From a virus, in the IMG/VR virus record IMGVR_UViG_3300047547_000161, positions 1-64,000 of that record: a stretch of 64,000 bases of DNA; one strand, 5' to 3'. Under the pieces are notes generated by a model. It made no database searches and had not been told where the DNA came from. It saw only the letters and a program-made list of their open reading frames with translations. A program made the position numbers and the translations under genes. Position 1 is the first letter of the stretch, and each line of letters opens with the position of its first letter. Below, piece by piece: positions 10,561 to 54,917 of the stretch.

Positions 10561-10585
10561 GTTTTATATCAAGATATTTATGTAT

Positions 10586-11215: not shown

Positions 11216-11742
11216 AAAAAATAATCAGACAATTACTAAGAGAAAACCTAGCGGTTAACGATATGGCAATATTGGTAACCGATTCATACATTATCCTAAC
11301 CGATAAAACAGGAACCAATTTTTATGCTGTTGCGACTTATGAGAAAATAGAAAATGGTTTATATCACATACCAGCCATGGGTGCTGAAAAAGGCTACGGG
11401 TTTTATTTATTCAATATCATACTAACGCTCATTTCGCCAGAATATTTAATTGCTGATAGAGATTCATCAACTAGCGCTCTAGCAGCTAAAATGCTTCAGA
11501 GAGCTTATCAGGACCCAAACATTGAGCATGTGACCCTAAATCCAGATGATAAAAATTACATGAAATATGATAGGGAATCACCAGAATATAATGCTATTGT
11601 AAACACTAAGTTTAGGATAAAGAAACCAATGAATGTGGCAAAAATGTTAGCTGACGGTAAGACCATCATGACCAAAAAGAAGATACCAATGGATGTTTGG
11701 AATGATAAAGCATTTGATTACTTCAGTAACAAATTAGGATAA
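11212..11742 (+). CDS. GNAT-like acetyltransferase domain protein, possible packaged protein
   Basis: 176 residues, overlapping the preceding gene by 4 bases (ATGA), so translation is probably coupled. The central text, GAEKGYGFYLFNII followed by IADRDSSTSALAAKML, resembles the acetyl-CoA-binding and following segments of phage GNAT-type proteins, though the classic Q/RxxGxG/A loop is poorly kept. The first 13 residues (MKKIIRQLLRENL) nearly repeat those of the ADP-ribosyltransferase-like neighbour and include the LRE motif. I infer a second packaged, host-directed protein. It ends at a large bidirectional terminator. Confidence 0.5.
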   Translation: MKKIIRQLLRENLAVNDMAILVTDSYIILTDKTGTNFYAVATYEKIENGLYHIPAMGAEKGYGFYLFNIILTLISPEYLIADRDSSTSALAAKMLQRAYQDPNIEHVTLNPDDKNYMKYDRESPEYNAIVNTKFRIKKPMNVAKMLADGKTIMTKKKIPMDVWNDKAFDYFSNKLG

Positions 11743-11744
11743 AT

Positions 11745-11772
11745 AATAAAGGGACCCATGGGTCCCTTTATT
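11745..11772. terminator. Bidirectional terminator between convergent genes
   Basis: A perfect 28-base palindrome centred on AAAGGGACCCATGGGTCCCTTT-type sequence, with AATAAA and TTTATT arms. It separates the rightward head block from the leftward baseplate block. Confidence 0.9.
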
Positions 11773-11796
11773 TATGCGTTAACTTTATAGTTGTTT

Positions 11797-12735
11797 TTAG
11801 ATTTTAGTTCCGCATTTTGAGCAGAATTTATCGGTTTTGCCGACCTTACTACCACAGTTTGTACAGTATCTTTTTACCATAAGCTCATCAACACTAATCG
11901 TTTTTTGAGATACAGGAAGAAGCTTATACTCTACTGTGTGGAATGGGTAAGAATAGAAGTCCTTACTCACATATTTGAAACTTTGGTTAGAATGTGAACC
12001 TTGTTCTACTCTACCAGTTTCAATTGTTTTAGACAGCTTTCTACTTCTTATTGGAGACGATTTGCGACTTAATTCTTGTGGTGCAAAATCAATAGAACCA
12101 GATGTAAGGCTTGACATACCATTCGTTGTGTAAGTTATGTCGCTAGAATAATAACTAGCAGAACCAATACTATCAGTAGTGACAGAATTAGTGTTTGTCG
12201 GCACACTTTTTAAATCGGTTGTTGTAACTGACCCGCCAGCGGTTCCACTTGAACCAATACCCAAACTAGATGGTGATGACATTGAGTTATAATACCAATA
12301 TTGTTGCCAAGATGGTACTGATGGTGATAACGGATAGTTGGTTATGACTGGATAAGACACTGGGATTTTAACTTCTTCATTATAGAAGTATACCTTGATG
12401 TCCCCATTGTTTTTAATGGCTTCTTTTACCTCTTCAGATTTACCAACCTCATAGGTATCAAATAGAAACTTCTGAGCTACATCAATATAACGGTCTAGGA
12501 ACACTCTCTCACCTGGGTTTAAGACCAGTCCTGATTGTGAAATCAATCGTCCATTTAATTCGATTTTAGCAAGTACAACGTTTGTTGTTGGGTTGAATAA
12601 TTCAATCTGGAACTCTTGTCCTTTTTGAAGATAGCATGTTGGCATTTCGCCAGACTTGTTGTAGACCTTGATTCTACTTTTGTTCACAGCAATGTTTGCT
12701 GTAGGCACCTTTTGGGTGCTAGTTGTTTTGTTCAT
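11797..12735 (-). CDS. Virion-type protein with C-terminal zinc ribbon
   Basis: 312 residues. The N-terminal part (about 20-130) is a beta-rich domain with LVLNPGERVFLDRYID, a motif I associate with phage and viral virion proteins of unclear role. A Ser/Thr/Gly-rich stretch follows at about 150-235. The C-terminus ends in a compact zinc ribbon with two CxxC pairs (CTNCGSKV and CSKCGTKI). Zinc ribbons at the end of structural proteins are uncommon; it might bind nucleic acid or the neighbouring baseplate. It has its own transcription unit, with a putative late promoter about 100 bases upstream and a bidirectional terminator downstream. Confidence 0.65.
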   Translation of the reverse strand: MNKTTSTQKVPTANIAVNKSRIKVYNKSGEMPTCYLQKGQEFQIELFNPTTNVVLAKIELNGRLISQSGLVLNPGERVFLDRYIDVAQKFLFDTYEVGKSEEVKEAIKNNGDIKVYFYNEEVKIPVSYPVITNYPLSPSVPSWQQYWYYNSMSSPSSLGIGSSGTAGGSVTTTDLKSVPTNTNSVTTDSIGSASYYSSDITYTTNGMSSLTSGSIDFAPQELSRKSSPIRSRKLSKTIETGRVEQGSHSNQSFKYVSKDFYSYPFHTVEYKLLPVSQKTISVDELMVKRYCTNCGSKVGKTDKFCSKCGTKI

Positions 12736-12836
12736 AATGTTTATTAACTTTTTAACATTGTTATTTGTACTGATATCTTCGTTGCCTTGACAACTCTAAA
12801 CCTTTATTTCACGGTCGAGACCAATACGTTAGTTAA

Positions 12837-12851
12837 CGCAATTATAAATAT
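12837..12851 (-). promoter_or_regulatory. Putative phage late promoter with long leader
   Basis: Coding-strand ATATTTATAATTGCG, 101 bases upstream of the ATG at 12735. This is the longest leader among the late-type elements; the leader contains a small GTTG/CAAC hairpin but no riboswitch I can recognise. Confidence 0.45.
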
Positions 12852-12861
12852 ACACCAAAAT

Positions 12862-12887
12862 AAAAAAAGGTCAAGTACTTATTGACC
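12862..12887 (-). terminator. Rho-independent terminator overlapping a stop codon
   Basis: On the minus strand, GGTCAA/TTGACC with a 7-base loop is followed by seven T. The stem begins within the last codons of the 12879-14285 gene. Confidence 0.88.
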
Positions 12888-14285
12888 CCTTCTTAGTTCA
12901 GATTGGTTCACAATATCAAAAATTACAGCATCTTTAAGTGTTGTAACTTCTTGATTAGAAGTAGATTGGATGTCTAAATAGTAAGTATTTGGTATAAGAC
13001 TTTGTGTGTCCAATAAAAAATAATAATTGTTGTTTGACCTTTCAACTGGTTGCCAATCTATGACGGTGAGTTCTGATTTACCTTCTCTAACATATAGCCT
13101 ATATTGAAGGTCATCTATGTATTGAGTTTGTTCTACGGTATACGGAATTCTAGCTGAAACAATAACTTTTCGGATATCACCTCGCTTGATTCTATCTTGG
13201 CTACGAATACCAGAGACAGTCACCGCCACCTTCTTAGGTAGCATAGTATTGTCACCGATGTTGTAATAATCCATCGAATCTTTTGTTGCAAATTGCATTT
13301 CAATATTTGGTCGGCTAATACCGTTTACGGTAATACCAGTCCAAGTATCATAATACATGACACCAACATTATCCCCATTTGATTCTATCGTCAAATCTAT
13401 TGAATAAACACCCAATGTTACGTGATTAACATCTGAAGATGTATAAGCTGAAATAAGGGTATCTGAACTATCATAGATGTTTACACTTGGTGTTGAATCT
13501 AGATTGGTTGGGTTACCATTAAGGTTGACGTATAGATAAAGCTTGTTAGGTTTATCCAAAAAGAAATTAGCTCTATCATCTACGATATGGTTATCGTAAA
13601 TTGTTTCAACATATGGTTCGTAAAATGTTTGAGTATTATTTGTGAAGAAACCGACATATTGTAATTTTGTCGTATTCATTTCTTCATATGCTCTAGCGTA
13701 TGCAATACCTAATCCGTAATTTGTAGCACCAGTAAGCAAACCATTTACATAATCGGTTATGTCTATGTCAATATTTTCATTACCTTTATCAAAATGTTGT
13801 GTGTTTACTGTAATACCAGATGGTGAACCAGAATATACACCAGTTCCGTTGGCCCATTCAACACCTGTTTGGGCTTCAACCCAGTTTGATGCTTCGTTTG
13901 AATAAGCTGAGTCACCAGCTACAATGAATGGTACTTCATAATCATAACCAACACCGTTATCCCAATCTTGGTTTATTTTAAAGACAATTAAATCGAATGA
14001 GCTAGCTCTATCTTTCCCACCCATGGTACCGTTTAGATATTGAGTGTCAAATGAGCCAGTATTGGTCATTTTAAGAGTGTGTGTAAGTTTGGATAGGTCT
14101 GTATATGTCCCACCAGTATAAAGCTCTCTTAATCTTGTCTCATCAAATTTGAATAAGAATCTACTGTATTTTTGTTCACCAATAGCACCACCATAAAATA
14201 ACTCAGTAACTGGGTTTAATCCAGTATTCACGTTTAAGTTACTTACAATAGTGTTATTTTTATCGAAATATGTGCGTACTACCAT
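12879..14285 (-). CDS. Tail or baseplate structural protein of unknown family
   Basis: 468 residues, beta-rich throughout, with no membrane helices or enzyme motif. The first half holds repeated FKF/FDL/DITDYV strand patterns seen in carbohydrate-binding or adhesin-like beta-sandwich domains (for example IDIDITDYVNGLL near residue 175). The second half has Ig-like text such as GVYSIDLTIES and YYLDIQS. It is directly upstream, in the same direction, of nothing else, but shares its divergent flank with the gp5-like hub gene, which reads the same way. A virion role is inferred from context and a late promoter 7 bases before the start. Confidence 0.6.
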   Translation of the reverse strand: MVVRTYFDKNNTIVSNLNVNTGLNPVTELFYGGAIGEQKYSRFLFKFDETRLRELYTGGTYTDLSKLTHTLKMTNTGSFDTQYLNGTMGGKDRASSFDLIVFKINQDWDNGVGYDYEVPFIVAGDSAYSNEASNWVEAQTGVEWANGTGVYSGSPSGITVNTQHFDKGNENIDIDITDYVNGLLTGATNYGLGIAYARAYEEMNTTKLQYVGFFTNNTQTFYEPYVETIYDNHIVDDRANFFLDKPNKLYLYVNLNGNPTNLDSTPSVNIYDSSDTLISAYTSSDVNHVTLGVYSIDLTIESNGDNVGVMYYDTWTGITVNGISRPNIEMQFATKDSMDYYNIGDNTMLPKKVAVTVSGIRSQDRIKRGDIRKVIVSARIPYTVEQTQYIDDLQYRLYVREGKSELTVIDWQPVERSNNNYYFLLDTQSLIPNTYYLDIQSTSNQEVTTLKDAVIFDIVNQSELRRGQ

Positions 14286-35850: not shown

Positions 35851-37037
35851 TAAATTACGTCCACATAATTGCTTACGATGGTGTTGATATCCATTGATTT
35901 GATTTCAGACAAATCTGTTGACATCTCTATCGTTTTCTTAACCATTGGGTTTGTTTCCGTAGACACAAACAATCCGTTATTAAATCTAGAATTTACAATA
36001 TTGAAGCCACCGTATAATTTGTTCATGTGTTCGATAATGTCATCATCAAACGCATGGATAATATCGAATTTAACGTCTTTAACCTTGTATAAGGTTTTAG
36101 GCGCTGATGGTTTAGGACCTTCTGGTGTTGGTATTTGCCATCTTCCGTCACCTAATGCAAAACCTGGTGGTTGTTGTATTGGTGCTAAATTAATTCCGCT
36201 TTGTTTAGCCAACATAGGCAGTTTTCCGCTCATGTTAGAACAAATCGTAACGTTATGTTTTAAAGCTTTCAAACGTTTAGCAATGTCGAAAACTATTTTG
36301 GCCTTGTTAGAGCTATCATCAAAAGCTAAGCTTGTCAACATGATATTAAGGCTTTCACCTTTTCTAAGTACTTTTTTTACATTAGCTGGTAAAAACGGTT
36401 TGTAATCATGAGCAAATTTTTCTCTGTTTTCTTCCCATTGTTCGTTAACTTGACCGATAGATTGGTGATTGATTCTTATGACGGTTGTTACACCGTTTTT
36501 AACACCACCCAAGAAGTTTTCAAAGCAAAAAGTTACATCATAGAAGTGATACCCAACAACGTTTTCGTTAAACTTTTGAACAATTTTTGTTTTGTCAACA
36601 GCAAAGAAAACACCATCGACAATAACTGTTTCTTCTATGTCTTGGTTTTGGTCTTTTGAATATTCAGATAACCAAGTTTTTCCTTCATGTGTATGAGCTA
36701 CACGACCATACATTTTGGTTCTGTCTTCCCACCATTTACCAGTTGTTGGTAGAGATTTCGTACCAGCAACACCTAGAATACCATATTCTGGGTTTCTCTT
36801 AAAAAGCTTTAAAAGTTTGTTACCCCATTGTTTTGTTTCAATGGTAATATCATCGTGACAAAACACAACAATATCGTTTTTGGCTTGTGATAAACCTCGG
36901 TTATATGATACGGTCAACGATTCTCCGTTATTGATAATTTCAATAACTTCTAATTTATTATGAAGACCTGAAGACTTTATCAAGTGTTCTGTATGTTCTG
37001 GCTTTGGTGCCCTAGTGCAGTATACTACTGAAATCAT
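35850..37037 (-). CDS. Two-part glycosyltransferase, family 2-like N-terminal domain
   Basis: 395 residues. Residues 1-225 form a GT-A domain of the kind in which a short N-terminal part (ISVVYCTRAP, VIEIINNGESLTVSYNRGLSQAKNDIVVFCHDDI) leads to a HDD metal motif near 61-63 and FFAVDKTKI. Residues 230-395 (LNIMLTSLAFDDSSNKAKIVFDIAKRLKALKHNVTICS) start like a GT-B N-terminal domain but no donor domain follows, so the second half may be incomplete or structural. It overlaps the GMP reductase-like gene by 4 bases, linking the cassette to the early nucleotide genes. Confidence 0.72.
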   Translation of the reverse strand: MISVVYCTRAPKPEHTEHLIKSSGLHNKLEVIEIINNGESLTVSYNRGLSQAKNDIVVFCHDDITIETKQWGNKLLKLFKRNPEYGILGVAGTKSLPTTGKWWEDRTKMYGRVAHTHEGKTWLSEYSKDQNQDIEETVIVDGVFFAVDKTKIVQKFNENVVGYHFYDVTFCFENFLGGVKNGVTTVIRINHQSIGQVNEQWEENREKFAHDYKPFLPANVKKVLRKGESLNIMLTSLAFDDSSNKAKIVFDIAKRLKALKHNVTICSNMSGKLPMLAKQSGINLAPIQQPPGFALGDGRWQIPTPEGPKPSAPKTLYKVKDVKFDIIHAFDDDIIEHMNKLYGGFNIVNSRFNNGLFVSTETNPMVKKTIEMSTDLSEIKSMDINTIVSNYVDVI

Positions 37038-38026
37038 TTTTTAAATCTGTTATATGCGTTATCTGTTATTTGTATTGTGTTTGCTTTACCTATAAAATCA
37101 TTGAGTGTCTTGGCGTTGCAATAACTCATAGCTGACCTTAAATAATCCTCAAAATTTTCAACCCATCCGCTAAGCGTATATTCAACTTTGCGTTTTCTAA
37201 CAACACCCTCAGATGTTTTAACGGTTTCTCTACCCCACTTCATTTGTACTTCTTTGGTTGACATACCTCTGAACTTCTTATAAATTGGTAAGCCCCAATC
37301 GTAAAAAATTTCAGCATCTGTTTGATTGATTTTGATACCATAAAGGTAGTTATCACCACACGATTCAATAGCTTTATTAAAAAGACTACCAACCATAACG
37401 AAATCGGCACCTAACGCTAAAGCTTTTATGATGTCACTATAATCCTTCATGCCGCCATCAGCAACGATTTTAGCTGGTTTTTGTAACGTGCAAGAAATGT
37501 CGTAACATTCTTTAATCAAAGAAGCCATAGGGAAGCCGACACCAGTATGTACCGTTGTACTACAAGCGTTTCCGTTTCCAATACCAACCCTTACCATATC
37601 GGCACCAGCTTCAGATAACATTGCATATGTTTCTGGGTTGGCTACGTTACCAACCATAAGCGTCATTTTCGGATAGGCTTCTTTAACAACCCTAGTTGTT
37701 TCAATCAAATTCTCCATATGCCCATTTGCAATATCTATCAAATACTTTCCTCTAGGTTTTAAATCACTGGACAAATATTTTGAGAAAAATTCGCTCAATG
37801 AATATGATGTAAACCCATCAATAGTGTGTTCACCCCTTGGTAAGCAAGTATTGATACGTAAATTGGTGAAGATTTTTTCGTTATCACTAGAAATTACAGT
37901 ATCCATAGGTGCTGTTATAATTGGTAATCTACCGTCAACATATGGGTTTATTTGACCCCTAGATTCAATTGTTGACACAGCAGCTGGCATCAACAGAATA
38001 TCGTTAAAATCTAACTTTACGCTCAT
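37034..38026 (-). CDS. GMP reductase/IMP dehydrogenase-like enzyme
   Basis: TIM-barrel purine enzyme of 330 residues lacking the CBS domains of most IMP dehydrogenases. LDFNDILLMPA and PIITAPMDTV are the N-terminal signatures, VRVGIGNGNACSTTVHTGVGFP at 146-166 contains the catalytic C155, and VADGGMKDYSDIIKALALGADFVMVGSLF is the phosphate-binding loop. It more closely fits GMP reductase by length. In a phage it would recycle guanine nucleotides; guanine nucleotide supply is also relevant to GDP-sugars used next door. Confidence 0.85.
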   Translation of the reverse strand: MSVKLDFNDILLMPAAVSTIESRGQINPYVDGRLPIITAPMDTVISSDNEKIFTNLRINTCLPRGEHTIDGFTSYSLSEFFSKYLSSDLKPRGKYLIDIANGHMENLIETTRVVKEAYPKMTLMVGNVANPETYAMLSEAGADMVRVGIGNGNACSTTVHTGVGFPMASLIKECYDISCTLQKPAKIVADGGMKDYSDIIKALALGADFVMVGSLFNKAIESCGDNYLYGIKINQTDAEIFYDWGLPIYKKFRGMSTKEVQMKWGRETVKTSEGVVRKRKVEYTLSGWVENFEDYLRSAMSYCNAKTLNDFIGKANTIQITDNAYNRFKK

Positions 38027-38031
38027 GTTTT

Positions 38032-38607
38032 TTAGTTACTTCCAGTTGAACCAAAACCACCTTCACCTCTTTGAGTTTCGTCTAAAGACTCAACCTTTTC
38101 AAACTTCATAACGTGACCAGACATTACAGGTGCAACAACACCTTGAGCAATTCTGTCTCCGTGATTTATTTTGAACGATTCGTTACCCAAATTAATAAGG
38201 ATAACTTTAACCTCACCGCGATAATCTGAATCAACAGTACCTGGTGTGTTTAGTACAGTGATACCGTTTTTAGCAGCAAGACCGCTTCTTGGTCTTACTT
38301 GTAATTCAAGTGTTTCTGGGATAGCAAAGTATAAACCAGTAGGTACTACAGCACGTTCGCCAGCCATGAGAATTATTGGTTCATCAATATTAGCCCTAAT
38401 GTCAAAACCAGACGAGCCACTTGTCGCAAAACTAGGGTCTTCGTTGTTTGATTTATTAATTAGTTTTATAGAAACTCTTGGGTCGGTTATTTGACCAGTT
38501 AAGTGTTCGAATTCTTTGTTAAAGTCATCTACACTATATGAGTTATTAGGGTCGTTAGCTTCGTCATATTTTTGACGAATGTATTCTAATTCTTCAGTTG
38601 AAAACAT
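38032..38607 (-). CDS. dut: dUTP pyrophosphatase (dUTPase)
   Basis: Trimeric dUTPase that removes dUTP and supplies dUMP. All five family motifs are visible in order: [17 protein letters not shown], the [14 protein letters not shown] segment with the catalytic Asp and Tyr, GDRIAQ and the C-terminal [10 protein letters not shown]. At 191 residues it is longer than usual because of a 40-residue acidic N-terminal extension. It ends 5 bases before the GMP reductase-like gene. Confidence 0.95.
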
Positions 38608-39240: not shown

Positions 39241-39864
39241 TTAATCGTTTAATGATGCATCTACGAAAAAATTTCCGTAATCATCAGTTTTTTTAACAAC
39301 TGATTGGTCTTCATATACGTACTTTAACTCACCATTAACAACTTCAATCCCTTTAACCTTTCTATCTGGTTCATTATTAGGTATTTCTGTATTACCTTCA
39401 TTAAGTGGGCTGAATCTATTGAACTCGGTTTTATTACCAGTCTTATTATCCATAAACTCAGTTGTGTCGAACAATCCGTTATGGTAACCATGACCTAACG
39501 TTTCTTCTGCGCCACGATGGGCGGTTCTCATTCTATCAACCAAACCACTTGCTTTCATAGATAAGTCTCTATGCGTGTTTAGTTCTTTAAGTCTTTTGAT
39601 TTCTTTTCTTAGTTCAAGTATTTCTACATCCTTAAGTCTTGAAACGTTTTTGAGTTGTACTCCGTCATCAACATTTTTCATCAAATTACGAATGTGGTCC
39701 AAATCCAAATTATGTTTTTTAGATAGCTTATCTATTGAACTGGTTGGTTCTGGTTCAATTTCGGTTTCTATTTGTACCGTATTTTTTTGCTCTGACATAT
39801 CTGAGTCATCATCTAACATTGTAGATATGAACTCAAAAACTTTTTTTAATTGTTTGTTATCCAT
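39241..39864 (-). CDS. Acidic coiled-coil protein of unknown function
   Basis: 207 residues, not recognised. The first half is acidic (STMLDDDSDMSEQ) and then coiled-coil-like (VSRLKDVEILELRKEIKRLKEL, near residues 74-95). The second half is polar with an HRGAEETLGHGYHNGLF segment. It directly follows the glycosyltransferase gene upstream (1-base overlap) and ends just before the host-type promoter at 39206-39236. Confidence 0.55.
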   Translation of the reverse strand: MDNKQLKKVFEFISTMLDDDSDMSEQKNTVQIETEIEPEPTSSIDKLSKKHNLDLDHIRNLMKNVDDGVQLKNVSRLKDVEILELRKEIKRLKELNTHRDLSMKASGLVDRMRTAHRGAEETLGHGYHNGLFDTTEFMDNKTGNKTEFNRFSPLNEGNTEIPNNEPDRKVKGIEVVNGELKYVYEDQSVVKKTDDYGNFFVDASLND

Positions 39865-41117
39865 TATACCGTTTCTATTAATACTGGGTTATTTTCTTTT
39901 ACCAACGAGTGATAAAGTTCTCTTCTGGTTTTGGTTGTTGTTTCTAGCGAATAAGTATCCTTAACCGTTTCGAACAAGTTGTTTTGTAGAGTTGTGATTA
40001 ACTCTGGGTTTTGAATTAGTTTTTTGATTGCACCATACCAATCTTTATGGTTTTTAACTGAATCAACCAAGATACCGTTAGCGGTGGTATCAAAACCACC
40101 ACCATATACCAAAGCATTCTTAAGGTCAATTTTGTAAGGTCCAAAATTTTGTGCTACGATAGCTTTCTTATGGAACCCAGCTTCAATAACTTTCAATTGG
40201 CTCTTTACCTTATTGAAAATGTTCTCTTGTAGTGGAGCTAAAGAAATATCAAATAAGTTATAGTTTGACGCATAAGATGAAATTGGTTTGGTCCAAACTC
40301 GTCTGTATGGTTCGTTTTCTACATTAGGGTATTCTTCGTTAACGAATTTCAACAAAAATTCTTTATACTCAGGGCTAACACTTCTGTAATCATCAGTGAA
40401 GATTCTTTCATACTGATACCAAACACTTTCTTTAGGTTGAATTGGTCTGGTGGTTTGTTCTTTGGTTACTGGGTCAATGATAGTGTGGTTACCTCTGAGG
40501 TCAAAACCACAAAGAACAAACTGAACTTTGTTTAATAATTTATCACCACTAAGCTTGCTTACCACACCTTCTAAAATTTTCAAGTCGTGTAAGTGTGATG
40601 AACCACCTAACCAACCAATTCTTAACCTATCAGATTTTGTTGGTTTTGGTTTAAATTGATATTCTTCTGGGTCAACAGCATTAGGTATAACAAAAACATT
40701 TTTGTTTAGCTTCTTAATTTCATCGGCGAATAACGTTGTTGTCGTTGTAACGTATTGCGCCATCTTTAAATTGTTCGCTATCTTTTTATCCAAATCATTG
40801 TTTTTGATAATGTGATAAGCTGGGTGGTGTTGACCTGGTGCCCAGTAATCATCTATATCCATAATTGATACAATGCCCATATTTCTAAGTTTATCATTCA
40901 ATAAGCTCATATATTCATAAGAACCTAGTGTTCTATGATAATGGATAATATCATATTGTTTTAACCATTCATCATTTTGTAATTGTGGTTCGTAATCAAT
41001 ATCAACGTGAAATTCGTCTGGATACATGCTCTCTAGCATAAGGTGTGGGTTTGTACTCCTAAAATAGGATACACCTGTTCTGTCACTTGGGACAACTAAA
41101 ACTTTAAGTTTCTTCAT
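39864..41117 (-). CDS. GT4-type glycosyltransferase
   Basis: 417 residues beginning MKKLKVLVVPSDRTGVSYFRSTNPHLML. It has the IHYHR and VTTTTTLFADEIKKLNKNVFVIPNAVD first-domain segments, RIGWLGGSSHLHDLKILEGVV at the start of the second domain, and VKSQLKVIEAGFHKKAIVAQNFGPY at the donor site near residue 320. The start at 41117 is chosen over an upstream in-frame TTG because a host-type promoter overlaps that TTG. It is expressed separately from the main cassette, probably early. Confidence 0.82.
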   Translation of the reverse strand: MKKLKVLVVPSDRTGVSYFRSTNPHLMLESMYPDEFHVDIDYEPQLQNDEWLKQYDIIHYHRTLGSYEYMSLLNDKLRNMGIVSIMDIDDYWAPGQHHPAYHIIKNNDLDKKIANNLKMAQYVTTTTTLFADEIKKLNKNVFVIPNAVDPEEYQFKPKPTKSDRLRIGWLGGSSHLHDLKILEGVVSKLSGDKLLNKVQFVLCGFDLRGNHTIIDPVTKEQTTRPIQPKESVWYQYERIFTDDYRSVSPEYKEFLLKFVNEEYPNVENEPYRRVWTKPISSYASNYNLFDISLAPLQENIFNKVKSQLKVIEAGFHKKAIVAQNFGPYKIDLKNALVYGGGFDTTANGILVDSVKNHKDWYGAIKKLIQNPELITTLQNNLFETVKDTYSLETTTKTRRELYHSLVKENNPVLIETV

Positions 41118-41134
41118 AAATTGTAACTTTGCGA

Positions 41135-41164
41135 CCAATATATACCATTAAAAATATTAGTCAA
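41135..41164 (-). promoter_or_regulatory. Near-consensus host-type promoter for the glycosyltransferase
   Basis: On the minus strand, TTG (41164-41162), 19 bases, then TATATTGG (41142-41135), one mismatch from TAnnTTTG, 17 bases before the ATG at 41117. Confidence 0.55.
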
Positions 41165-43670: not shown

Positions 43671-45455
43671 ATGGGATTTCTCACTAAAATTGATACATCA
43701 GATAACAGACAAGCCAGACAACGAATAGAAACATCAACACATTATTCTGGTGCAACTGTACTAGGTGTTACTTTTGATATGTTACCTACTGGGCCTAGCA
43801 CGACTGATTCTGGGGTTACATCAACAATAACTGGCGCTACAGCCACTTTTTCTGGTAATAGTGGGACAACTAATTTTTCTTGGTATGACCCAAGGATGAA
43901 TCTAGCTACTGGTTTTTCAGCTATCACACCAACCAATACTGGTGAAACACAAAGCACTGGTTTTTTATTTGCACCTAATTTAACTGGTACTAGTTTAGAT
44001 GGTTATCCAATTACACTAACTTATAGTGGTGTTAGTTTTGATATGTCACCAACAACGTTCATAAATTTAGGTGGTGGTAATTATAGTGGGACTGTGTTTA
44101 CTTACGATATAGATTTCTTGTCGGCAGGTACTATTGATTTCACTGGTTCAACTATTTGGTTAGATGTTTCTGGTATTACAAGAACAAACGGTTTAATTTT
44201 TACTGATAATCCAGTTGTTGGTTACGTTGTAACATGTATTGATACAGATGGGACGCTATCTTTGCAACCATCCTCTGGTTCAAGTGCAACAACTGTAACA
44301 ACTTATTGGTCTGCTGGTACTGGTACCAAATCAATAGTTGTTAAAGGTTTTCAATCAACTGCTGGTGGAGATTACGCTGTTGCTGAAGGGTTTCAAACAT
44401 CTTCAGACGGTAATTACTCAATAACTAAAGGCTATCGAACTTGGACAAAAGCTGACTACGGTTATGCTGAAGGTTATACTAGCACTGCTGGTGGTACAGC
44501 AGCCCATGCTGAAGGTTATTTGACTAGCGCATCAGGTAACTATTCACACTCTGAGGGTTCTGGTACAACCGCTATAGGTAGTGCATCACATTCAGAGGGT
44601 GGTTTAACTACCGCTACTGGTGCTTATTCACACGCTGGTGGTAATTCATCAGCAGCAACTGGTGCTACATCATTTGTTCACGGTTCCAATTCTAGGGCAC
44701 ACGGTAGTTCAACGATAGTTTTAGGTAGTAATATAACGGGTACAACAGCTGATACAACCTATGTTGACAACTTAAACATAAAAACTGTGGGTGTAGGGCC
44801 AGGTGTAACTGATATCGGTGTTGATGCCAATGGTTTTGTAGTTAACCAAGCGTCAGATTTACGCATGAAGAAGAATATTTCAACTATTGAAAACGCTTTG
44901 GATAAGGTAAAACAACTTAGGGGTGTCAAATATCAGTGGAACGATGAAGAAAAAGGTGGTTCTGAATACCGTTTAGGTTTTATAGCACAGGAAGTTTATG
45001 AAGTTGAACCGCTTTTAAGCTTTGTAAACACATCAACAAGCGAAAATTACATGGGTGTTCTTTATAAAGATGTCCCAGCGCTGCTTGTTGAAGCGATAAA
45101 AGAGTTGGTTTCCGATGAAGTGGTGATAAATAAAACGTATTTGGAGACTCAAAGTATCATTGCTGAGGATAATAACATTGATTTAAACTATGGTGGTACT
45201 AAAGAAACCGCTATAAATGGTGGTATTAGGGTAATAAACGGTCTTGGTGATGAAAACGCAGAATTTATTTTAAATGAAGACGGTAATTGGGTAACAAATA
45301 ATGGTTTTAAACCTAAAAATTTAACCCTACCTACTGGTACCCCATCATCAACCAATGATGTTATGGGTAATATTGGTGATGTTTTAGCTGATGAAAATTA
45401 CATATACGTAAAAACACAAACAGGTTGGAAGAGGTCTTCTTTGACTAATTTCTAA
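43671..45455 (+). CDS. Tail fibre with YadA-like repeats and internal peptidase S74 chaperone domain
   Basis: 594 residues. The N-terminal 210 residues are beta-rich and probably attach to the virion. Residues about 220-345 carry around ten 14-residue SHAEG/SHSEG-type repeats, as in the left-handed beta-roll of trimeric adhesin heads. A short neck (NITGTTADTTYVDNLNI) leads to an intramolecular chaperone at about 395-480: SDLRMKKNI with the Ser and Lys expected for self-cleavage, then LGFIAQEVYEVEP and KDVPALLVEAIKEL. The remaining 115 residues follow the chaperone and end NYIYVKTQTGWKRSSL. Cleavage would remove about 200 residues after trimerisation. Confidence 0.85.
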   Translation: MGFLTKIDTSDNRQARQRIETSTHYSGATVLGVTFDMLPTGPSTTDSGVTSTITGATATFSGNSGTTNFSWYDPRMNLATGFSAITPTNTGETQSTGFLFAPNLTGTSLDGYPITLTYSGVSFDMSPTTFINLGGGNYSGTVFTYDIDFLSAGTIDFTGSTIWLDVSGITRTNGLIFTDNPVVGYVVTCIDTDGTLSLQPSSGSSATTVTTYWSAGTGTKSIVVKGFQSTAGGDYAVAEGFQTSSDGNYSITKGYRTWTKADYGYAEGYTSTAGGTAAHAEGYLTSASGNYSHSEGSGTTAIGSASHSEGGLTTATGAYSHAGGNSSAATGATSFVHGSNSRAHGSSTIVLGSNITGTTADTTYVDNLNIKTVGVGPGVTDIGVDANGFVVNQASDLRMKKNISTIENALDKVKQLRGVKYQWNDEEKGGSEYRLGFIAQEVYEVEPLLSFVNTSTSENYMGVLYKDVPALLVEAIKELVSDEVVINKTYLETQSIIAEDNNIDLNYGGTKETAINGGIRVINGLGDENAEFILNEDGNWVTNNGFKPKNLTLPTGTPSSTNDVMGNIGDVLADENYIYVKTQTGWKRSSLTNF

Positions 45456-47372: not shown

Positions 47373-50300
47373 ATGCCAAATCAAAAAATTAGTCAATTTA
47401 ACATTAACACAAACATTGGTGGTGATAACTTAATCCCAATGGCAGCATCTGGTACAACGTATGCCGCGACTGTTAGTGGTTTGACAGAATATTTTACAAC
47501 ATTTGTTAGCGGTTATTCAGGGACTGATATATACGTAACAGGTGGTACATACTCAAACGGAACTGCCGTATTTACAAATAATACTGGTGGTACATTTACC
47601 GTATCTGGTTTTTTGACTGGCGGCACCTCTGGTACTGAAGTGTTCGTAACTGGCGGTACATATTCAAATGGTACCGCTATCTTTACTAACAATACAGGTG
47701 GTACATTTACCGTTACAGGTTTCTATACTGGCGGTACAATAACCAACGACACATTTGTAACTGGTGGTACATATACCAACGGTACAGCTACTTTCACCAA
47801 TAATACTGGTGGTACGTTCAATGTTAGCGGATTTTACACTGGTTCAACTGAACTTTATTTAACAGGCGGTACATATTCAGATGGTACAGCCACCTTTACA
47901 AATAACACAGGTGGTACATTTAATGTTAATGGGTTTTATACTCAAAATATGAAAAATTATGTCACAGTTGGTGTTAGCGGTAATACGGATTTTACCTCTA
48001 TTAAAGCCGCTGTTGACTCAATAACTGACGCATCAACGTTTAACCCGTATGCGGTGGTCATTTTCCCAGGTGTTTATTTTGAGGATAGTATTACCATGAA
48101 AAGTGGTATTCACCTATTCTCATTTAGTTTGGGTGAAGTTTTATTGATACCTAATAGCACAACACAAACAATTTTTGTTGGTGCTGATGGTTCCTCTATA
48201 ACCAATATAATCATGAACGGTGCTAGCGGTACTGGTGGTAGAGCTATCTATCACGTTGGTACAGGTGGTACTGGTTTTTTGGTTAAAGACTGTAACTTTA
48301 ATAATAACTATATCAACGTAGAATGTTATGGCGCTAGCTCTACATCAACTGTTTATGTTGACAGATGTAGCGTCACTGGTAATAATACATATGGTTTTAT
48401 AGCAAACAATAGTGGTACAACCGCATCTCAAATTATTTTTGTTAATTCAACTTATCGTGATACTACTTTACCAGTTACTGAAACATTTTTGAGTGTTTCA
48501 GGTACAAATTCGGTTATAACATTAACCAACACCACACTTAGAACAACATCACAAAGTGGTTCTACATGTATAAAAGCGTATGATGGTGGTGAAATAAGAG
48601 TAGTTGGTAGTACAATTAGAGGTTTTGAAACAGCTATTAAATCGGTTGCTGGTGGTGCCGCTCCAAAAATGTTATTTGATAGCGTAGCTATTGACGAGAC
48701 GACTAATCATTTAGTTATCGAACATACTGGAACTACTGGTTATTACAACGGTGTTGTTGATTTAAACAAAGTCACTTTAGATAACACTACACCGTTTTAT
48801 ATTTATAGTTCAGACTTAAGAGAAATACACGTTGCAAAAAAAGGTGAACAATTCACTTCAATTGCCGATGCCGTTAATTTTATTACCGACTCGTCAGAAA
48901 CCAATAGATATGTTATTAAAGTTGGGGCTGGTGAATATACTGAGCCACTAATTGATTTAACTGATAAACCATATATTTCTATTGTTGGTTCATCAATTGC
49001 GTCAGTATTGGTACAACCAGACTCTGATTCACATCACGTTTTTAAAATAGCTGCTACTAATGAAATTTCTTTCTTGACAATTAAAAATGCTGGTTTAGGA
49101 TATGCTGGTATCTATATGTTAGATGGTGGTGATTACGCTCAAGCGCACAAAATTTCATTCATAGATTGTGATACAGGTATCTATATTGAATCTGATGCTG
49201 CTGATTCAATATTCTATGGTGAATATATTGACTACAACGGAACTTATAGCTACGGTACAAAAGTTTATTCAGCAAACGGTAATGTTGCTTTTGCTAATTT
49301 GGAAAACTATTACAACTTACCAACTGGTACTGGAACAACAATAGGTAACTATATCGAAGGTACTGGAGCGACCATAACCGTATTAAGTTCGTCAAATAAT
49401 GGTGTGGACACAAGTGGTTCAACATGTTTTGAAGTAAGAGATGGTGGTGAAGTAAACGGTAGCGCTATTAGGATAACAAACTACGATTATGGTATTAGAG
49501 TTTTAAACATAGGTTTGCCTAGTACAGTTAATGTAGCTGGTACACTTATTAAAGATTCTGGTGTTTATGATATGTCATTTGAACACGCTCAAGGTAGAGC
49601 AACATATGTTGGTTCAGCTAGTCACACTAAAATAAATAACCAATCACCATATAGTTCTTGGATATTCTTGGATATTGACGATAGTGAATTTGAAATAAGA
49701 AACAAACTTTCTATAACATATAATAACGGTACACATACCGATTTGTCAACACTTATTACAGAAACATCAACAATGGGTGTTTTCCATGGTGGTGTTATTT
49801 CTATCGTAAGTGGATTAACCGTAAACGTATCTAGTGGTTTTGGTTATTTTGAAGACGCTGTAAACGACACATATAACAGAAATGATTGGAATAGTCAGAA
49901 TCTAACTTTACCTGATAACCAAGCTAACTACGTATACTTTAACGAGAATCAAATTTTATCATATAGTACGAGCGAACCTGATACAGTAACAAATATTTTG
50001 TTGGGTAGAGTTGTAACACATAGTGGTAATACTGAAATTATAAACGCGACTCCACTAAGGGCAGAACACACATCAAATAATTTTGCACAATTATTTAGAA
50101 ACGCGATTGGTCCAGTATATGCATCTGGTTCAATAGTGAATGAAAACACAACACCGTTTAAGCTAGATGTTACTAGTGGTACGTATTATTTCTCAACAAA
50201 TGAGTTCACACCTTCTGGTGGTACAGCCATAACTTTCACATCAATCTACAGAAATGGTTTGGGTGGTCATGTGTTTACTACGACAGATACTGTTGATGCA

Positions 50301-52325
50301 TCTTATTTTGATAACAATAACGGTACCTTATCTGCTTTAACTACAAACTACTACACCAAACACTCTTTGTACGTTGTTGGTGAAGGGGATGACGAAAAAT
50401 ACTTTTTAGTTTATGGTCAATCGCAACATGACACATTACTAGGTGCAGAAAACGTTGGTTTAAATTTACCACCTAGTTATTTTAATTCATCAGTTGCTTT
50501 AATCGCTACAATTATTGTACAACAAGGTAATTCAAACATTATTGAAATATTGGATAACAGACCAATTATTGGTTTTAGAAGCCAAGGTGTTAGCACAGCT
50601 GCTAGTACACATGGTGAATTGTTTGGGTTGTCAGCGGATGACCATACACAATATTTGAGAGTTGATGGTGCTAGACAATTAAGTGGTAACTTAGGTTTAG
50701 GTGGGAATAATATCTATAGTGCTGGTACTATAAACAACGTTACGATTGAATCTCACGCTTCTAGACATCAACATGGTGGTGCTGATGAAGTTGGTGTTGA
50801 AACACCAGCGCCTAACGCAATACCTAAAGCAAACACAAATAGTAAACTTGATGCGTGGATTTCAACAGCTACAACAACTACATTAGGTTTAGTTAAATTA
50901 AGTCAAGCACCTGTTAATTCTGCAAGTCCTGTTGTGTTGACACAATCTGATACTAGATTCCAAAACGCAATTACTGGTGTTACATCTATTAATAATGTTT
51001 TAACTGTTACCAACGTAAGTGGTGGTACTAGTAGCTACATTATATCTGATGTTTATGTAACTGGAGGTACATACTCTAATGGTACCGCTATATTTACAAA
51101 CTCAACAGGTGGAACATTCAATGTAAGTGGGTTTAAGACAACCGATACATTTGTAACTGGTGGTACGTATTCTAACGGAGCAACTACTTTTACAAACAAT
51201 AGTGGTGGTACCTTTACTGTAAACGGTTATTATACTGGTTCAACTGATGTGTTTACTACAGGTGGTACATATACCAATGGTATAGCTACCTTTATGAATA
51301 ATACAGGTGGTACATTTAGTGTATCTGGATTTTACACTGGTTCAACTGATGTATATGTAACTGGTGGTACATATACTAACGGTACTACTACATTTATAAA
51401 TTCAACAGGTGGAACATTTAACGTTAACGGTTATTATACTGGTTCAACTGATGTATATGTAACTGGTGGTACATATACCAACGGTACAGCTACTTTTACT
51501 AATAGCACTGGTGGAACGTTTAACGTATCTGGATTCTTAACACAAGCTGGTGATAATACATTCATTACTGGTGGTACGTATTCAAATGGTACAACTACGT
51601 TTACTAATAACACGGGTGGTACCTTTACAGTAACAGGTTATTATACTGGAAACACAGATACATACGTAACTGGTGGTACGTATTCAAATGGTACCGCTAT
51701 ATTTACAAACTCAACAGGTGGTACGTTTAACGTAAGTGGATTTAAGACAAATGATTTATATGTAACTGGTGGTACGTATACCAATGGTACAGCTACATTT
51801 ACGAACAATACAGGTGGTACGTTTAATATAAGTGGGTTTAGTACAGCAACTACATTTACTGGTGGCGTTGTTGTTAATGACACCAAATTTAATAATGGTA
51901 TATCCGCAACTACAATATCCGCAACTACATACGTTAACCTACCTTTAAGTCATACTGCTGGTGTTGGGGCGACACCTACGGCTTCTTCAACATCAACAAT
52001 TACTCACAATTTGGGTAGAGTGCCAACAACAATACGACTAAACGGTAAAGGTAGTTTTACAGCTAACGCTTCAGCCACACCTACACCTAGTTCTGAGGGT
52101 GTTTGGTGTTCTAGCGGTAATTTCTGTATTTACCAAGGATATGGTGCGGCTGTCACAACAGGTGTAGCCGCTGCTACATCAAACACATTTGCAATTGCTG
52201 TATATACAGGACCAGGTAACTTTGTGACTGGTGTTGTACAAAACGTAACTTCAACATCGTTTGATATTGTTTGGACAGAAACTGGTACTGCAACCGCACA
52301 AGTATTTATGTGGGAAGCACAATGA
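47373..52325 (+). CDS. Long tail fibre with beta-helix domains and flanking repeats
   Basis: 1650 residues, the largest gene here. Residues about 50-190 hold four repeats of the form VTGGTYSNGTxxFTNNTGGTFxVxGF; about 1225-1490 hold eight more. Between them lie two right-handed beta-helix regions of pectate-lyase type, starting FTSIKAAVDSITDAS near 205 and FTSIADAVNFITDSS near 492. Then come the fibre motifs HGELFGLSADDHTQYLRVDGAR near 1085 and HASRHQHGGADEVG near 1130, common in phage fibres and possibly metal binding. The C-terminal 150 residues form a compact beta domain that probably contacts the host. No chaperone domain follows. Confidence 0.82.
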   Translation: MPNQKISQFNINTNIGGDNLIPMAASGTTYAATVSGLTEYFTTFVSGYSGTDIYVTGGTYSNGTAVFTNNTGGTFTVSGFLTGGTSGTEVFVTGGTYSNGTAIFTNNTGGTFTVTGFYTGGTITNDTFVTGGTYTNGTATFTNNTGGTFNVSGFYTGSTELYLTGGTYSDGTATFTNNTGGTFNVNGFYTQNMKNYVTVGVSGNTDFTSIKAAVDSITDASTFNPYAVVIFPGVYFEDSITMKSGIHLFSFSLGEVLLIPNSTTQTIFVGADGSSITNIIMNGASGTGGRAIYHVGTGGTGFLVKDCNFNNNYINVECYGASSTSTVYVDRCSVTGNNTYGFIANNSGTTASQIIFVNSTYRDTTLPVTETFLSVSGTNSVITLTNTTLRTTSQSGSTCIKAYDGGEIRVVGSTIRGFETAIKSVAGGAAPKMLFDSVAIDETTNHLVIEHTGTTGYYNGVVDLNKVTLDNTTPFYIYSSDLREIHVAKKGEQFTSIADAVNFITDSSETNRYVIKVGAGEYTEPLIDLTDKPYISIVGSSIASVLVQPDSDSHHVFKIAATNEISFLTIKNAGLGYAGIYMLDGGDYAQAHKISFIDCDTGIYIESDAADSIFYGEYIDYNGTYSYGTKVYSANGNVAFANLENYYNLPTGTGTTIGNYIEGTGATITVLSSSNNGVDTSGSTCFEVRDGGEVNGSAIRITNYDYGIRVLNIGLPSTVNVAGTLIKDSGVYDMSFEHAQGRATYVGSASHTKINNQSPYSSWIFLDIDDSEFEIRNKLSITYNNGTHTDLSTLITETSTMGVFHGGVISIVSGLTVNVSSGFGYFEDAVNDTYNRNDWNSQNLTLPDNQANYVYFNENQILSYSTSEPDTVTNILLGRVVTHSGNTEIINATPLRAEHTSNNFAQLFRNAIGPVYASGSIVNENTTPFKLDVTSGTYYFSTNEFTPSGGTAITFTSIYRNGLGGHVFTTTDTVDASYFDNNNGTLSALTTNYYTKHSLYVVGEGDDEKYFLVYGQSQHDTLLGAENVGLNLPPSYFNSSVALIATIIVQQGNSNIIEILDNRPIIGFRSQGVSTAASTHGELFGLSADDHTQYLRVDGARQLSGNLGLGGNNIYSAGTINNVTIESHASRHQHGGADEVGVETPAPNAIPKANTNSKLDAWISTATTTTLGLVKLSQAPVNSASPVVLTQSDTRFQNAITGVTSINNVLTVTNVSGGTSSYIISDVYVTGGTYSNGTAIFTNSTGGTFNVSGFKTTDTFVTGGTYSNGATTFTNNSGGTFTVNGYYTGSTDVFTTGGTYTNGIATFMNNTGGTFSVSGFYTGSTDVYVTGGTYTNGTTTFINSTGGTFNVNGYYTGSTDVYVTGGTYTNGTATFTNSTGGTFNVSGFLTQAGDNTFITGGTYSNGTTTFTNNTGGTFTVTGYYTGNTDTYVTGGTYSNGTAIFTNSTGGTFNVSGFKTNDLYVTGGTYTNGTATFTNNTGGTFNISGFSTATTFTGGVVVNDTKFNNGISATTISATTYVNLPLSHTAGVGATPTASSTSTITHNLGRVPTTIRLNGKGSFTANASATPTPSSEGVWCSSGNFCIYQGYGAAVTTGVAAATSNTFAIAVYTGPGNFVTGVVQNVTSTSFDIVWTETGTATAQVFMWEAQ
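47530..47945 (+). repeat. Four tandem coding repeats, N-terminal fibre array
   Basis: Units of about 100-125 bases encoding TGGTYSNGTAxFTNNTGGTF. DNA identity between units is high, so recombination could change copy number. Confidence 0.85.
51050..51850 (+). repeat. Eight tandem coding repeats, C-terminal fibre array
   Basis: Same repeat family as the array at 47530-47945 in the same gene. Direct repeats flanking about 3.1 kb would allow deletion of the whole beta-helix region by recombination. Confidence 0.85.
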
Positions 52326-52349: not shown

Positions 52350-54917
52350 ATGAGCAATATTTTAACCTTAAGAAGTACTAGCAGCCCTTACGGAGATACC
52401 GTTAAGGGTTCTGTACTTTCACATACAGAAGTTGATACCAATTTTATACGATTAAAAGGTATGTCAATTTACAGCGCCCAAACAATCGGTGATACTGTAA
52501 ATTTATTGGCATATAATGGTGATAGTTTTTCTTTTACCGTAGGTTCAACACAAACTGGTTCTACAACGGATTCATATTGGACATCTGGTTCAACGTGGAG
52601 CGGTACAAACTATCCTATTAAGGCTAACAATGATTCAGGGTTAGATGCTCAAGGTATTTATGCAGTTGCTGAAGGTAGAGCAACTTTAGCAAAAGGTAAT
52701 TATTCCCATGCTGAGGGTTGGTTGACGACAACCAACGGTGATGCAAGTCACTCTGAAGGTTTAAGCACTAAAGCTAATGGTACCGCATCACATGCTGAGG
52801 GTTCAAGTACAACAGCATCAGGTGCTTCAGCACACGCTGAAGGTAATTTAACTATAGCTAATGGTGCATACTCACACTCTGAAGGTTTTACAACAACAGC
52901 ACAGGGTCAGGCAGCACACGCTGAAGGTAGAAGTACAACAGCTATTGGGACAGGTTCTCATGCTGAAGGTATTTCAACCGTAACAAACGGTAATTATTCA
53001 CATGCTGGTGGGTCAGGTTCATCCACTACAAATGCATATTCATTTGCTAATGGTTATGGTGTTAGAGCCATAGGGACTGCTTCACATGCTGAAGGTGGTA
53101 TAACTTCAGCGATTGGTAATTATTCACACGCTGAAGGTTGGGCCACTTCTGCCAATGGTGCTTATTCACATGCTGAAGGTTATGAAACAAGTGCTAATGG
53201 TGATTACTCACATGCTGAAGGTTTTCAAAATAACGCTGGCGGTGATTTCGCACACGCTGAAGGTTATTTAACGACTGCTAATAATGTAGCAACACATGCT
53301 GAAGGTAACTCTACAACAGCAAGTGGTAACAATTCACATGCCGAAGGTAATTTAACCATAGCATCTGGCGATACTTCACATGCTGAGGGTAATCAGACAA
53401 CAGCAAGTGATTTTTCACATGCCGAAGGTATCTTTACTTTTGCTAGCGGAGTTAATTCACATGCAGAAGGTCACCAAACAACTTCTGAGGGTCTATATTC
53501 GCACGCTGAAGGTGACCAAACAACAGCGTTAGGTGAAATATCACACGCTGAAGGTAAAAATACTACAGCTATTGGTGATGCTGGGGCACACGCTGAAGGT
53601 TATTACACCATAGCAAGTGGTGGGACATCACACTCTGAAGGACAAAATACTATTGCTGGTGGTGAAGCTTCACATGCTGAAGGTATATATAGCATTGCTA
53701 GTGGGGTTGTATCACACGCTGAAGGTTCTGGTACCACAGCAAGTGGTTATGCTTCGCACTCTGAAGGTTCTGGTACCACAGCTAGCGGAATAGGTTCACA
53801 TGCTGAAGGTGCTTTTACGACAGCAAGTGGTTTATATTCACATTCTAGTGGTTATCAAACCATGGCTTATGGTAGATACTCACATACTGAGGGTACATTA
53901 ACTAGGGCTAACGAAGCATCACATGCTGAAGGTTGGGGTACGACTGCGACTGGTGTTTATGCTCACTCTGAAGGTTTAACAACAACTGCGTCTGGTGATT
54001 ATTCACACTCAGAAGGTGGTACAACAACAGCGACTGGTCTTGGTGGTCACTCTGAGGGTTATCAAACAAAATCTTTAGGTTTAGGTTCACACAGTGAAGG
54101 TAGAATTACAACCGCTACTGGTGAGGCATCACATGCTGAAGGTTATGGTTCAGTAGCAGCAGGTATAGCGTCACACTCTGAAGGTTCTAATACAACAGCA
54201 AGTGGTGTTGGTTCACATGCTGAAGGTGATGGTGTAATAGCTAATGGTGATTATTCACACGCTGAAGGTTTTCAAACTTATTCATATGGGACCCAATCGC
54301 ACGCTGAAGGTTATTTAACAACAGCACAGGGTAATGTTTCACACGCTGAGGGTGAATCTACTACCGCTATTGGGGTTGATTCACACGCTGAGGGTTATAC
54401 TTCAACAGCATTAAATGATTACTCACACGCAGAGGGTTATGCTTCAATAGCATCTGGTATCACTAGTCACGCCCAAGGTTATCAAGCTATAGCTGGTGGT
54501 GATAACTCACACGCTGAAGGTAAAGGTACAATAGCTAGCGGTGCTCAATCTCATGCTCAAGGTAGAGGCACTTTAGCAAGTGGTGACCAATCTATGGCAA
54601 GTGGTGATTTAAGTGTTGCTTATGGTTCGAACTCATTTGCTGGTGGTTATAACACTACAGCTAGTGGTGAGACTTCTTTTGCAATAACACAAAACTCAAT
54701 CGCTGGTGGTAGTGCATCAGTAGTTTTAGGTAAAAACATAACAGGAACAACTGATAATACAGTATATGTTAGGGATTTTGTTATAACAAAATCAGCAACT
54801 GTACCAACAGCGACTGGTGATGCTATTGGTGAGCCTGGTTCAATTACTTGGGACGATACATATATTTATTGGAAAACAAATAGTGGTTGGTTAAGAGTAG
54901 CTGGTAGCACATTCTAA
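52350..54917 (+). CDS. SHAEG-repeat fibre protein (YadA head-like)
   Basis: 855 residues. After a 105-residue N-terminal domain (SSPYGDTVKGSVLSHTEVDTNFIRLKG, a motif seen at fibre attachment ends), residues about 108-755 consist of some 45 repeats of 14 residues, consensus SHAEGxxTTASGxY, as in the left-handed beta-roll of trimeric adhesin heads. The end has the neck segment NITGTTDNTVYVRDFVI and a small domain finishing YIYWKTNSGWLRVAGSTF, closely similar to the end of the S74 fibre gene. It lacks its own S74 chaperone, so folding may depend on the other protein. Confidence 0.85.
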   Translation: MSNILTLRSTSSPYGDTVKGSVLSHTEVDTNFIRLKGMSIYSAQTIGDTVNLLAYNGDSFSFTVGSTQTGSTTDSYWTSGSTWSGTNYPIKANNDSGLDAQGIYAVAEGRATLAKGNYSHAEGWLTTTNGDASHSEGLSTKANGTASHAEGSSTTASGASAHAEGNLTIANGAYSHSEGFTTTAQGQAAHAEGRSTTAIGTGSHAEGISTVTNGNYSHAGGSGSSTTNAYSFANGYGVRAIGTASHAEGGITSAIGNYSHAEGWATSANGAYSHAEGYETSANGDYSHAEGFQNNAGGDFAHAEGYLTTANNVATHAEGNSTTASGNNSHAEGNLTIASGDTSHAEGNQTTASDFSHAEGIFTFASGVNSHAEGHQTTSEGLYSHAEGDQTTALGEISHAEGKNTTAIGDAGAHAEGYYTIASGGTSHSEGQNTIAGGEASHAEGIYSIASGVVSHAEGSGTTASGYASHSEGSGTTASGIGSHAEGAFTTASGLYSHSSGYQTMAYGRYSHTEGTLTRANEASHAEGWGTTATGVYAHSEGLTTTASGDYSHSEGGTTTATGLGGHSEGYQTKSLGLGSHSEGRITTATGEASHAEGYGSVAAGIASHSEGSNTTASGVGSHAEGDGVIANGDYSHAEGFQTYSYGTQSHAEGYLTTAQGNVSHAEGESTTAIGVDSHAEGYTSTALNDYSHAEGYASIASGITSHAQGYQAIAGGDNSHAEGKGTIASGAQSHAQGRGTLASGDQSMASGDLSVAYGSNSFAGGYNTTASGETSFAITQNSIAGGSASVVLGKNITGTTDNTVYVRDFVITKSATVPTATGDAIGEPGSITWDDTYIYWKTNSGWLRVAGSTF
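52670..54620 (+). repeat. Tandem 42-base coding repeats
   Basis: About 45 degenerate copies with a dominant 42-base period, each holding TCACA(T/C)GCTGA(A/G)GGT or a close variant. A few units are one codon shorter. A shorter array of the same type lies at about 44380-44700 in the S74 fibre gene. Confidence 0.9.

Follow-up and report, generated by a model that had tools for sequence, protein, structure and literature searches.

The DNA analysed here, positions 1 to 64,000 of the IMG/VR virus record IMGVR_UViG_3300047547_000161 (hereafter the window; the record holding it is 67,127 bp long), belongs to a tailed phage with terminase, portal and major head protein genes. The subject of this study is an open reading frame (ORF) on its plus strand, at 52350-54917, which encodes 855 amino acids (aa) and carries a long array of SHAEG repeats. 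An earlier note on this DNA had described about 45 such repeats with a 42-base period, as well as a related, shorter array in a fibre gene with an S74 domain, and both descriptions hold. The exact SHAEG motif occurs 25 times in the ORF and a looser form of it 44 times, the spacing between looser motifs is a multiple of 14 aa in 40 of 43 cases, and a walk over this lattice gives 48 layers of 14 aa, three of which have 13 or 15 residues instead; at the DNA level, Tandem Repeats Finder detects, between 52767 and 54586, rows whose period is 42 or 84 bp. The array extends from residue ~105 to ~795 (~2.07 kb). The parts of the gene, a repeat within it and the S74-type gene are as follows.

52350..52541, plus strand: N-terminal domain, residues 1-64 (...SSPYGDTVKGSVLSHTEVDTNFIRLKG...); from an alignment of 7 IMG/VR loci
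52662..54734, plus strand: 48 14-residue SHAEG layers and two closing layers (SFAIT, SVVLG); from motif counts, Pfam, and model 2 with its PDB matches
54735..54767, plus strand: remainder of the closing segment (...VVLGKNITGTTDNTVYVRDF...), ahead of the C-terminal domain; from alignment
54768..54914, plus strand: C-terminal 49 aa; from a weak structural match of model 1
53253..53272, plus strand: copy A of a 20-bp repeat, CACGCTGAAGGTTATTTAAC; the contig L039 departs from the window nearby (last identical base 53275)
54300..54319, plus strand: copy B of the 20-bp repeat, 1047 bp downstream of copy A; L039 rejoins the window after it
43671..45455, plus strand: fibre gene with an S74 chaperone domain; its SHAEG array is small (4 strict motifs)

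The first 64 residues, presumably an attachment domain, are conserved in the 7 aligned loci among proteins whose downstream module differs, and a similar closing segment is conserved across 21 aligned array ends. The C-terminal 49 aa may form a small trimerization domain: this part of model 1, which is of low confidence, weakly resembles the collagen XVIII/XV trimerization domains (VIA Z 3.9-4.3), and a Pfam scan of the C-terminal 57 aa at E 1 gave no match. By eye, 54768-54914 is similar to the end of the S74 protein (45228-45452), with the common pattern G.I..D..YIY.KT..GW.R.

The earlier note had assigned the repeat to the left-handed beta-roll head of YadA-type trimeric adhesins, and prediction supports this well. 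The whole ORF scores 63 bits with the Pfam family YadA_head (cut-off 25), nothing besides YadA_head was found in it by a Pfam scan at E 0.01, and its layers follow the 14-residue pattern GxNSVAIGAxSxAx of YadA-like heads, with the invariant Gly8. Model 2, which covers 205 residues at the array end (window 54177-54791) and was made with 20 relatives, has a mean predicted local distance difference test score of 87.5, with values of 93-97 for the roughly six layers at residues 111-200, falling to 64-73 near residues 61-90. A Foldseek search with this model gave six matches at E<=0.001, from three entries, all of them YadA-like heads. When 494 chains were realigned to it with VIA, the top ten rows were heads of trimeric autotransporters, with Z scores of 21.5 for BpaC, 19.5 for UspA1, 17.9 for BoaA, 17.0 for CbpF and 16.8 for YadA and a lowest value of 14.6, the first non-adhesin rows being an ice-binding protein (12.2) and gp12 of phage phi29 (11.4). 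The root-mean-square deviation was 1.6 Å over 128 residues for BoaA and 2.2 Å over 139 for YadA, and a profile made from the model 2 alignment found ten PDB sequences at E<=0.01, all trimeric-autotransporter adhesins or their constructs. The array is thus predicted to adopt a YadA-like left-handed parallel beta-roll. What weighs against this is that the full-length model 1 had no PDB match at E<=0.001 and, after VIA realignment, no YadA head among the best 50 of 111 chains, and that the structure predictions cover single chains only. Model 1 combines high local confidence in the array with a predicted template modelling score of 0.42, and with that score and no YadA head match it was discarded for fold assignment. 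Against a library of viral models it gave seven matches at E<=0.001, among them two proteins from pithovirus (LCPAC404/406) and one from mimivirus (LCMiAC01), at 28-40% identity, pointing to similar repeats in giant-virus records.

The hallmark of trimeric autotransporters, a C-terminal membrane-anchor barrel, was not found by Pfam in the whole ORF or in its C-terminal 57 aa, and Pfam found no S74 domain in 52350-54917, though one is present in 43671-45455. The identification of the protein as a phage fibre, already made in the earlier note, is supported by the tailed-phage genome, by the neighbouring S74 tail-fibre gene and by the named relatives, which are proteins of Verrucomicrobia phage P8625 (tail fiber protein), Flavobacterium phage immuto (tail spike protein) and a crAss-like phage (hypothetical protein), these labels being annotation and non-experimental; the best PHROG, 25468, is of unknown function. 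The array protein is best read as a trimeric phage fibre module and not as an autotransporter, its trimer state being presumed from the family.

Given the register that we favour, the unusual feature of the array is the motif itself, which places His and Glu at trimer-core positions and on which the earlier note was silent. In the window array His occupies position 5 in 44 of 48 layers and Glu position 7 in 41 of 48, and 44 of the 45 His within the array stretch sit at position 5. Across 1,398 units, from loci found by SHAEG-containing or neighbour-gene queries and without the arrays below 30% His5, the frequencies are 0.88 for His5 and 0.86 for Glu7, in a profile that demanded small residues at positions 4 and 6 and Gly8 and left positions 5 and 7 free; positions 2, 3, 9, 10, 12 and 14 have an entropy of 3.1-3.9 bits. 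According to the BpaC paper (PMC9543794), the trimer-core positions of a YadA-like layer are 5 and 7, Gly8 alone is invariant and the rise per layer is 4.8 Å, so that 48 layers would make a rod about 23 nm long. In the favoured register the Val and Ile of YadA heads are replaced at both core positions in most layers.

Since a layer consists of two half-motifs, SHAEG could be either its core half or its outer half. We consider it highly probable that His5 and Glu7 face the trimer core. The residue directly after [SATG]H[ASV]E is Gly 1250 times out of 1254, against 1187 of 1377 after the other half-layer (TxAx); the closing layers SVVLG (consensus TIVLG) keep to the lattice of the SHAEG motifs and correspond to SVALG/SVVLG in the alignments with CbpF and AtaA; and SHAEG was aligned on the core SxAxG in four of the five PDB alignments listed, namely those of BpaC, CbpF (two sequences) and AtaA. 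However, the BoaA alignment is offset by half a layer, which leaves the register short of full agreement, and the half-layers could be reversed, or the solenoid wound differently, with TTASG facing the core and His and Glu lying outside as a binding surface. A TTASG core would resemble the Thr/Ser core of BpaC, position 12 is often T, I, V or L and position 14 often S, as core positions could be, and the mismatch of model 1 with YadA heads and the single-chain nature of the predictions also leave room for such an arrangement; with the near-invariant Gly, the closing layers and the four alignments on the other side, we think it unlikely. The long insertions between units (37 tallied) lie after Gly8 in 2 cases and after position 14 in 5, are ambiguous in 30, and do not decide between the two registers.

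The two residues may also go together, with an odds ratio of 53 over 1,448 units (the last 4 layers of each array omitted), although this pairing can be no more than suggestive, given that the seed motif includes His and prefers Glu. On a more speculative level, which we put forward as a possibility rather than an expectation, the fibre rod could hold a continuous buried column of His/Glu rings, with three His and three Glu per 4.8 Å layer over ~44 layers (~21 nm), joined by salt bridges or bound metal, and the codon tract of the same motif would also give homology for recombination. If so, the hydrophobic YadA core would have a charged or metal-bearing counterpart in this rod, with assembly or stiffness possibly dependent on pH or metal, and a single motif would be both the core of the fibre and the engine of its variation.

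The earlier note had further suggested that slippage or recombination could vary the length of the array and the host range. Change of the array by recombination is supported in relatives and only suggested for the window's own array. The clearest case is that of L105 and L106 (contigs of 306 and 206 kb), which over 10,609 bp differ at just 7 bases, every one of them in an 18-bp stretch of the array. In L105 this stretch belongs to a 32-bp exact copy of the unit that lies 210 bp (five layers) further downstream, while the version of L106 has no exact copy elsewhere in L106 or in L103; this is the pattern that gene conversion leaves, and we read it as one clear conversion tract. Between L103 and L105, 119-120 of 120 bases per block agree over ~4.8 kb before the array and most blocks beyond the gene still have 107-120 of 120 in agreement, whereas 163 of 903 aligned bases of the array differ and the strict motifs number 23 and 17; a second low-identity stretch near L105 480-885, upstream of the fibre gene, means that the array is not the sole difference. 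L049 and L072 are 89-100% identical on both sides of the array and 63-76% inside it, with an exact 84-bp (two-layer) length difference, and in the pairs L029/L031 and L022/L071 identity drops from high to low at or within the array. Among 25 array genes, some from related contigs, 12 have a longest exact repeat that exceeds every one of 60 codon-preserving shuffles; in L024 the excess repeat lies outside the SHAEG part, which leaves 11 of 25 with an excess in the SHAEG part itself. One of these 11, L020, has an adjacent 54-bp duplicate at distance 42, and in the other ten the copies are ~3 to 43 units apart, a spacing that favours recombination or conversion over slippage.

It could be argued that the array is a passive spacer which sets fibre length, that its divergence is old, and that the apparent recombination is whole-gene exchange between lineages. 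The arrays are indeed identical in 6 of 10 near pairs (L010/L011, L016/L017, L022/L062, with 410 bp of array only, L049/L061, L057/L081 and L077/L084) and differ in 4 (L105/L106, L103/L105, L039/window and L048/L056), in a count of different contigs with aligned array sequence that omits L029/L031, L042/L059, L063/L065, L071/L080, L080/L114 and L081/L096, which lack it, as well as repeats of one contig pair via other loci, and that merges L103/L106 with L103/L105. Array change is therefore not constant in every lineage; in addition, the window array has no recent duplications and the conserved positions are mostly structural. Nevertheless, a passive spacer fits poorly with the L105/L106 differences, which are confined to 18 array bp and copy another unit, or with the sharp fall in identity and the exact two-layer length change of L049/L072, and we give it a low probability.

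The window's own array may have a shorter counterpart in L039 (14,061 bp), which matches the record at 54400-67127 with one single-nucleotide polymorphism, including the record's part of a third SHAEG array. The first 106 bp of L039 equal window 53170-53275, after which it continues as the window from 54323. The jump, which lies at the 20-bp repeat CACGCTGAAGGTTATTTAAC (53253, 54300), is in frame and removes 1,047 bp (349 aa, ~25 layers) from array 1; the L039 base at window 54320 is that of the upstream copy, and there is one further change at 54362. L039 looks like a short allele of the window's phage, but this is only suggestive because the junction lies at a contig end, 106 bp away. The differences between near-identical contigs, such as this junction, an 8-bp gap in L056 and the contig ends near arrays, could then be assembly artefacts, and both L039 and L048 do differ from their partners near contig ends. 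The gap, seen between L048 and L056 (about L056 1354 versus L048 115-122, in a 70-80-layer array), breaks the L056 reading frame and could be an error or a real inactivation. Contigs also end within 3 kb upstream of the polymerase gene in 11 of 38 cases and downstream in 1 of 38 (Fisher p 0.003; the 38 are those of 46 polymerase loci with a nearly complete match, near-identical contigs being counted apart); 4 of these 11 begin in a SHAEG-motif ORF, and such ends are at best a weak sign of array variation. We nevertheless doubt that artefacts explain the differences: those of L105/L106 and L103/L105 lie kilobases inside contigs of 306, 206 and 29 kb, the L039 junction shares 20 exact bases plus one mismatch, which we infer is short for a k-mer error, and L039 otherwise departs from the record at 54400-67127 by a single base. 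Short-read assemblies may all the same break or misjoin at SHAEG-array genes.

Codon usage in the window array is uneven in a way that fits units deriving from each other within the array, many layers sharing a 15-base tract. Ala6 is GCT in 27 of 32 cases against 17 of 37 for Ala13 (p 0.001), Ser4 is encoded by TCA in 27 of 35 cases, compared with 37% in 16 other genes of the window, and Gly8 by GGT in 41 of 42, compared with 78% in those genes; other arrays fix other codons, as in L012, where Ser4 is only AGT/AGC. The shared tract may be what drives recombination. Replication slippage of a short unit, the other process named in the earlier note, is improbable as the main source of copy-number change, since beyond the adjacent duplicate of L020 the best copies are ~3 to 43 units apart in the ten other excess-repeat genes. 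It was rejected as the main cause in the window, where the longest exact repeat of the array is only 22 bp, a length that 36 of 200 codon-preserving shuffles matched in one test and 8 of 60 in another; this lack of an excess of long repeats also weighs against the explanation preferred below.

As for length, the idea that so long a stack is unusual did not survive comparison, and the description of a giant, unusual array was rejected. The 63 arrays in the fetched loci, gathered by SHAEG-based or neighbour-gene queries and with near-identical phages counted separately (L015/L048, L022/L062, L009/L039, L073/L089), have 5 to 81 layers; 7 are longer than that of the window, which ranks eighth. Behind an S74-type fibre N-terminus (23 loci) the strict motifs number 0 to 49, and behind the N-terminus of the window array protein (seven loci) 0 in four loci, three of them near-identical, and 2, 10 and 55 in the others. 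The array is thus a swappable module, and its length in the window is ordinary for the group.

Taken together, the explanation that we prefer is that this tailed phage makes a trimeric tail-fibre or spike protein with a YadA-like roll, a His/Glu core and arrays that recombine through their repeats. Because of the half-layer shift of BoaA we set its probability at about 0.72 and keep outward-facing His and Glu as an outside chance. In this explanation the conserved N-terminal domain would precede a rod of ~48-50 stacked layers, closed by the conserved cap and the short C-terminal domain. The small conserved residues S4, A6, G8, T11, A13 and G1 would build the roll, His5 and Glu7 would point to the threefold axis in place of the usual Val/Ile, and the variable positions 2, 3, 9, 10, 12 and 14 would form the surface. 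Most layers share, nearly unchanged, the coding tract TCA CAY GCT GAR GGT, which would allow an array to recombine internally or with another array; unequal exchange would alter layer number in frame, and short conversion tracts would shift surface residues between layers. The fibre could then alter its surface and length more quickly than the remaining genome changes, plausibly tracking changes in host receptors, with a presumed effect on adsorption if the protein is placed on the virion as we expect. The repeat, the cap and the modularity are established here, and in some near pairs divergence is limited to the array. If the explanation is true, an uncultured phage group present in many metagenomes uses one small layer as an interchangeable block of its fibre rod, reshuffled by recombination, and the His/Glu core would be a new core type for the YadA-like fold, useful for rigid rods.

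Other genes of the record complete the picture. A third SHAEG ORF, unremarked in the earlier note, starts at 64171 and runs off the record end at 67127; in L039 it is closed (9946-13980), with 1345 aa from stop to stop and 24 strict motifs, and the part common to both is identical. Next to the array gene, a 1650-aa ORF (47373-52325) has 102-111-bp repeats (VTGGTYSNGTATFTNNTGGTF...), with exact DNA repeats of up to 41 bp that exceed any in the SHAEG array, so that it may be a likelier site of slippage; it had no match to PHROGs at E 0.01. The minus-strand ORFs 37034-38026, 38032-38607 and 39864-41138 resemble, as we take it from sequence features, IMP dehydrogenase/GMP reductase, dUTPase and a glycosyltransferase, respectively. 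A 626-aa neighbour has one relative, at 55%. One scan of genome contigs for cellular relatives, made with six peptides specific to the query, gave a single weak match, in Lentzea (28% identity), so absence from bacteria is not implied. The phage matches of the polymerase are all distant (Salinibacter, Anabaena, Nostoc; 23-29%), which does not settle the host.

Tetart is said to have described, in 1996, duplications of the adhesin domain of T4 tail fibres that change host range, a parallel in that part of a fibre adhesin is duplicated, though the protein is a different one. No description of a His/Glu core was found in the literature searched, most subscription journals lying outside its coverage; the matches listed for SHAEG as a literature string were all unrelated, and Hep_Hag combined with phage tail fibres gave no literature match. 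With the YadA-like head (Ylhead, Hep_Hag; PDB 1P9H, 3S6L, 3WP8; PF05658) the array shares the 14-residue layer, the small conserved residues and the predicted fold, and it differs in being phage-borne, in that no membrane anchor was found, and in its His5/Glu7 instead of Val5/Ile7. The C-terminal head of BpaC (PDB 7O23), the best structural match to model 2, likewise has a long stack (42 predicted layers), a hydrophilic core and hydrophobic closing layers (PMC9543794). BpaC differs in being a bacterial adhesin with an uncharged core of Thr, Asn and Ser and buried water, although this means that an accepted member of the YadA-head family also departs from the Val/Ile core, and the addition or removal of layers has been proposed there as a way to change adhesin length (PMC9543794).

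Among phages, ORF108 of cyanophage S-TIM4, a structural protein with a YadA domain, acquired 15 clustered synonymous changes in one evolved population during host adaptation, which its authors tentatively trace to two or more recombination events involving up- and downstream regions (PMC6224464). The deposited ORF108 contains no more than 4 SHAEG-type motifs and 5 lattice units, and its repeat is different from that of the window array. In pelagiphages, tail fibres that carry a YadA domain at the C-terminus lie in metaviromic islands, where the YadA-like fibre region under-recruits metagenomic reads, and the text covered contains no long SHAEG array or unit-level recombination (PMC3909814). 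Variable phage fibres with YadA domains are already known, and the present array adds a His/Glu core motif, unusual if the favoured register holds, and evidence for recombination between units in its relatives.

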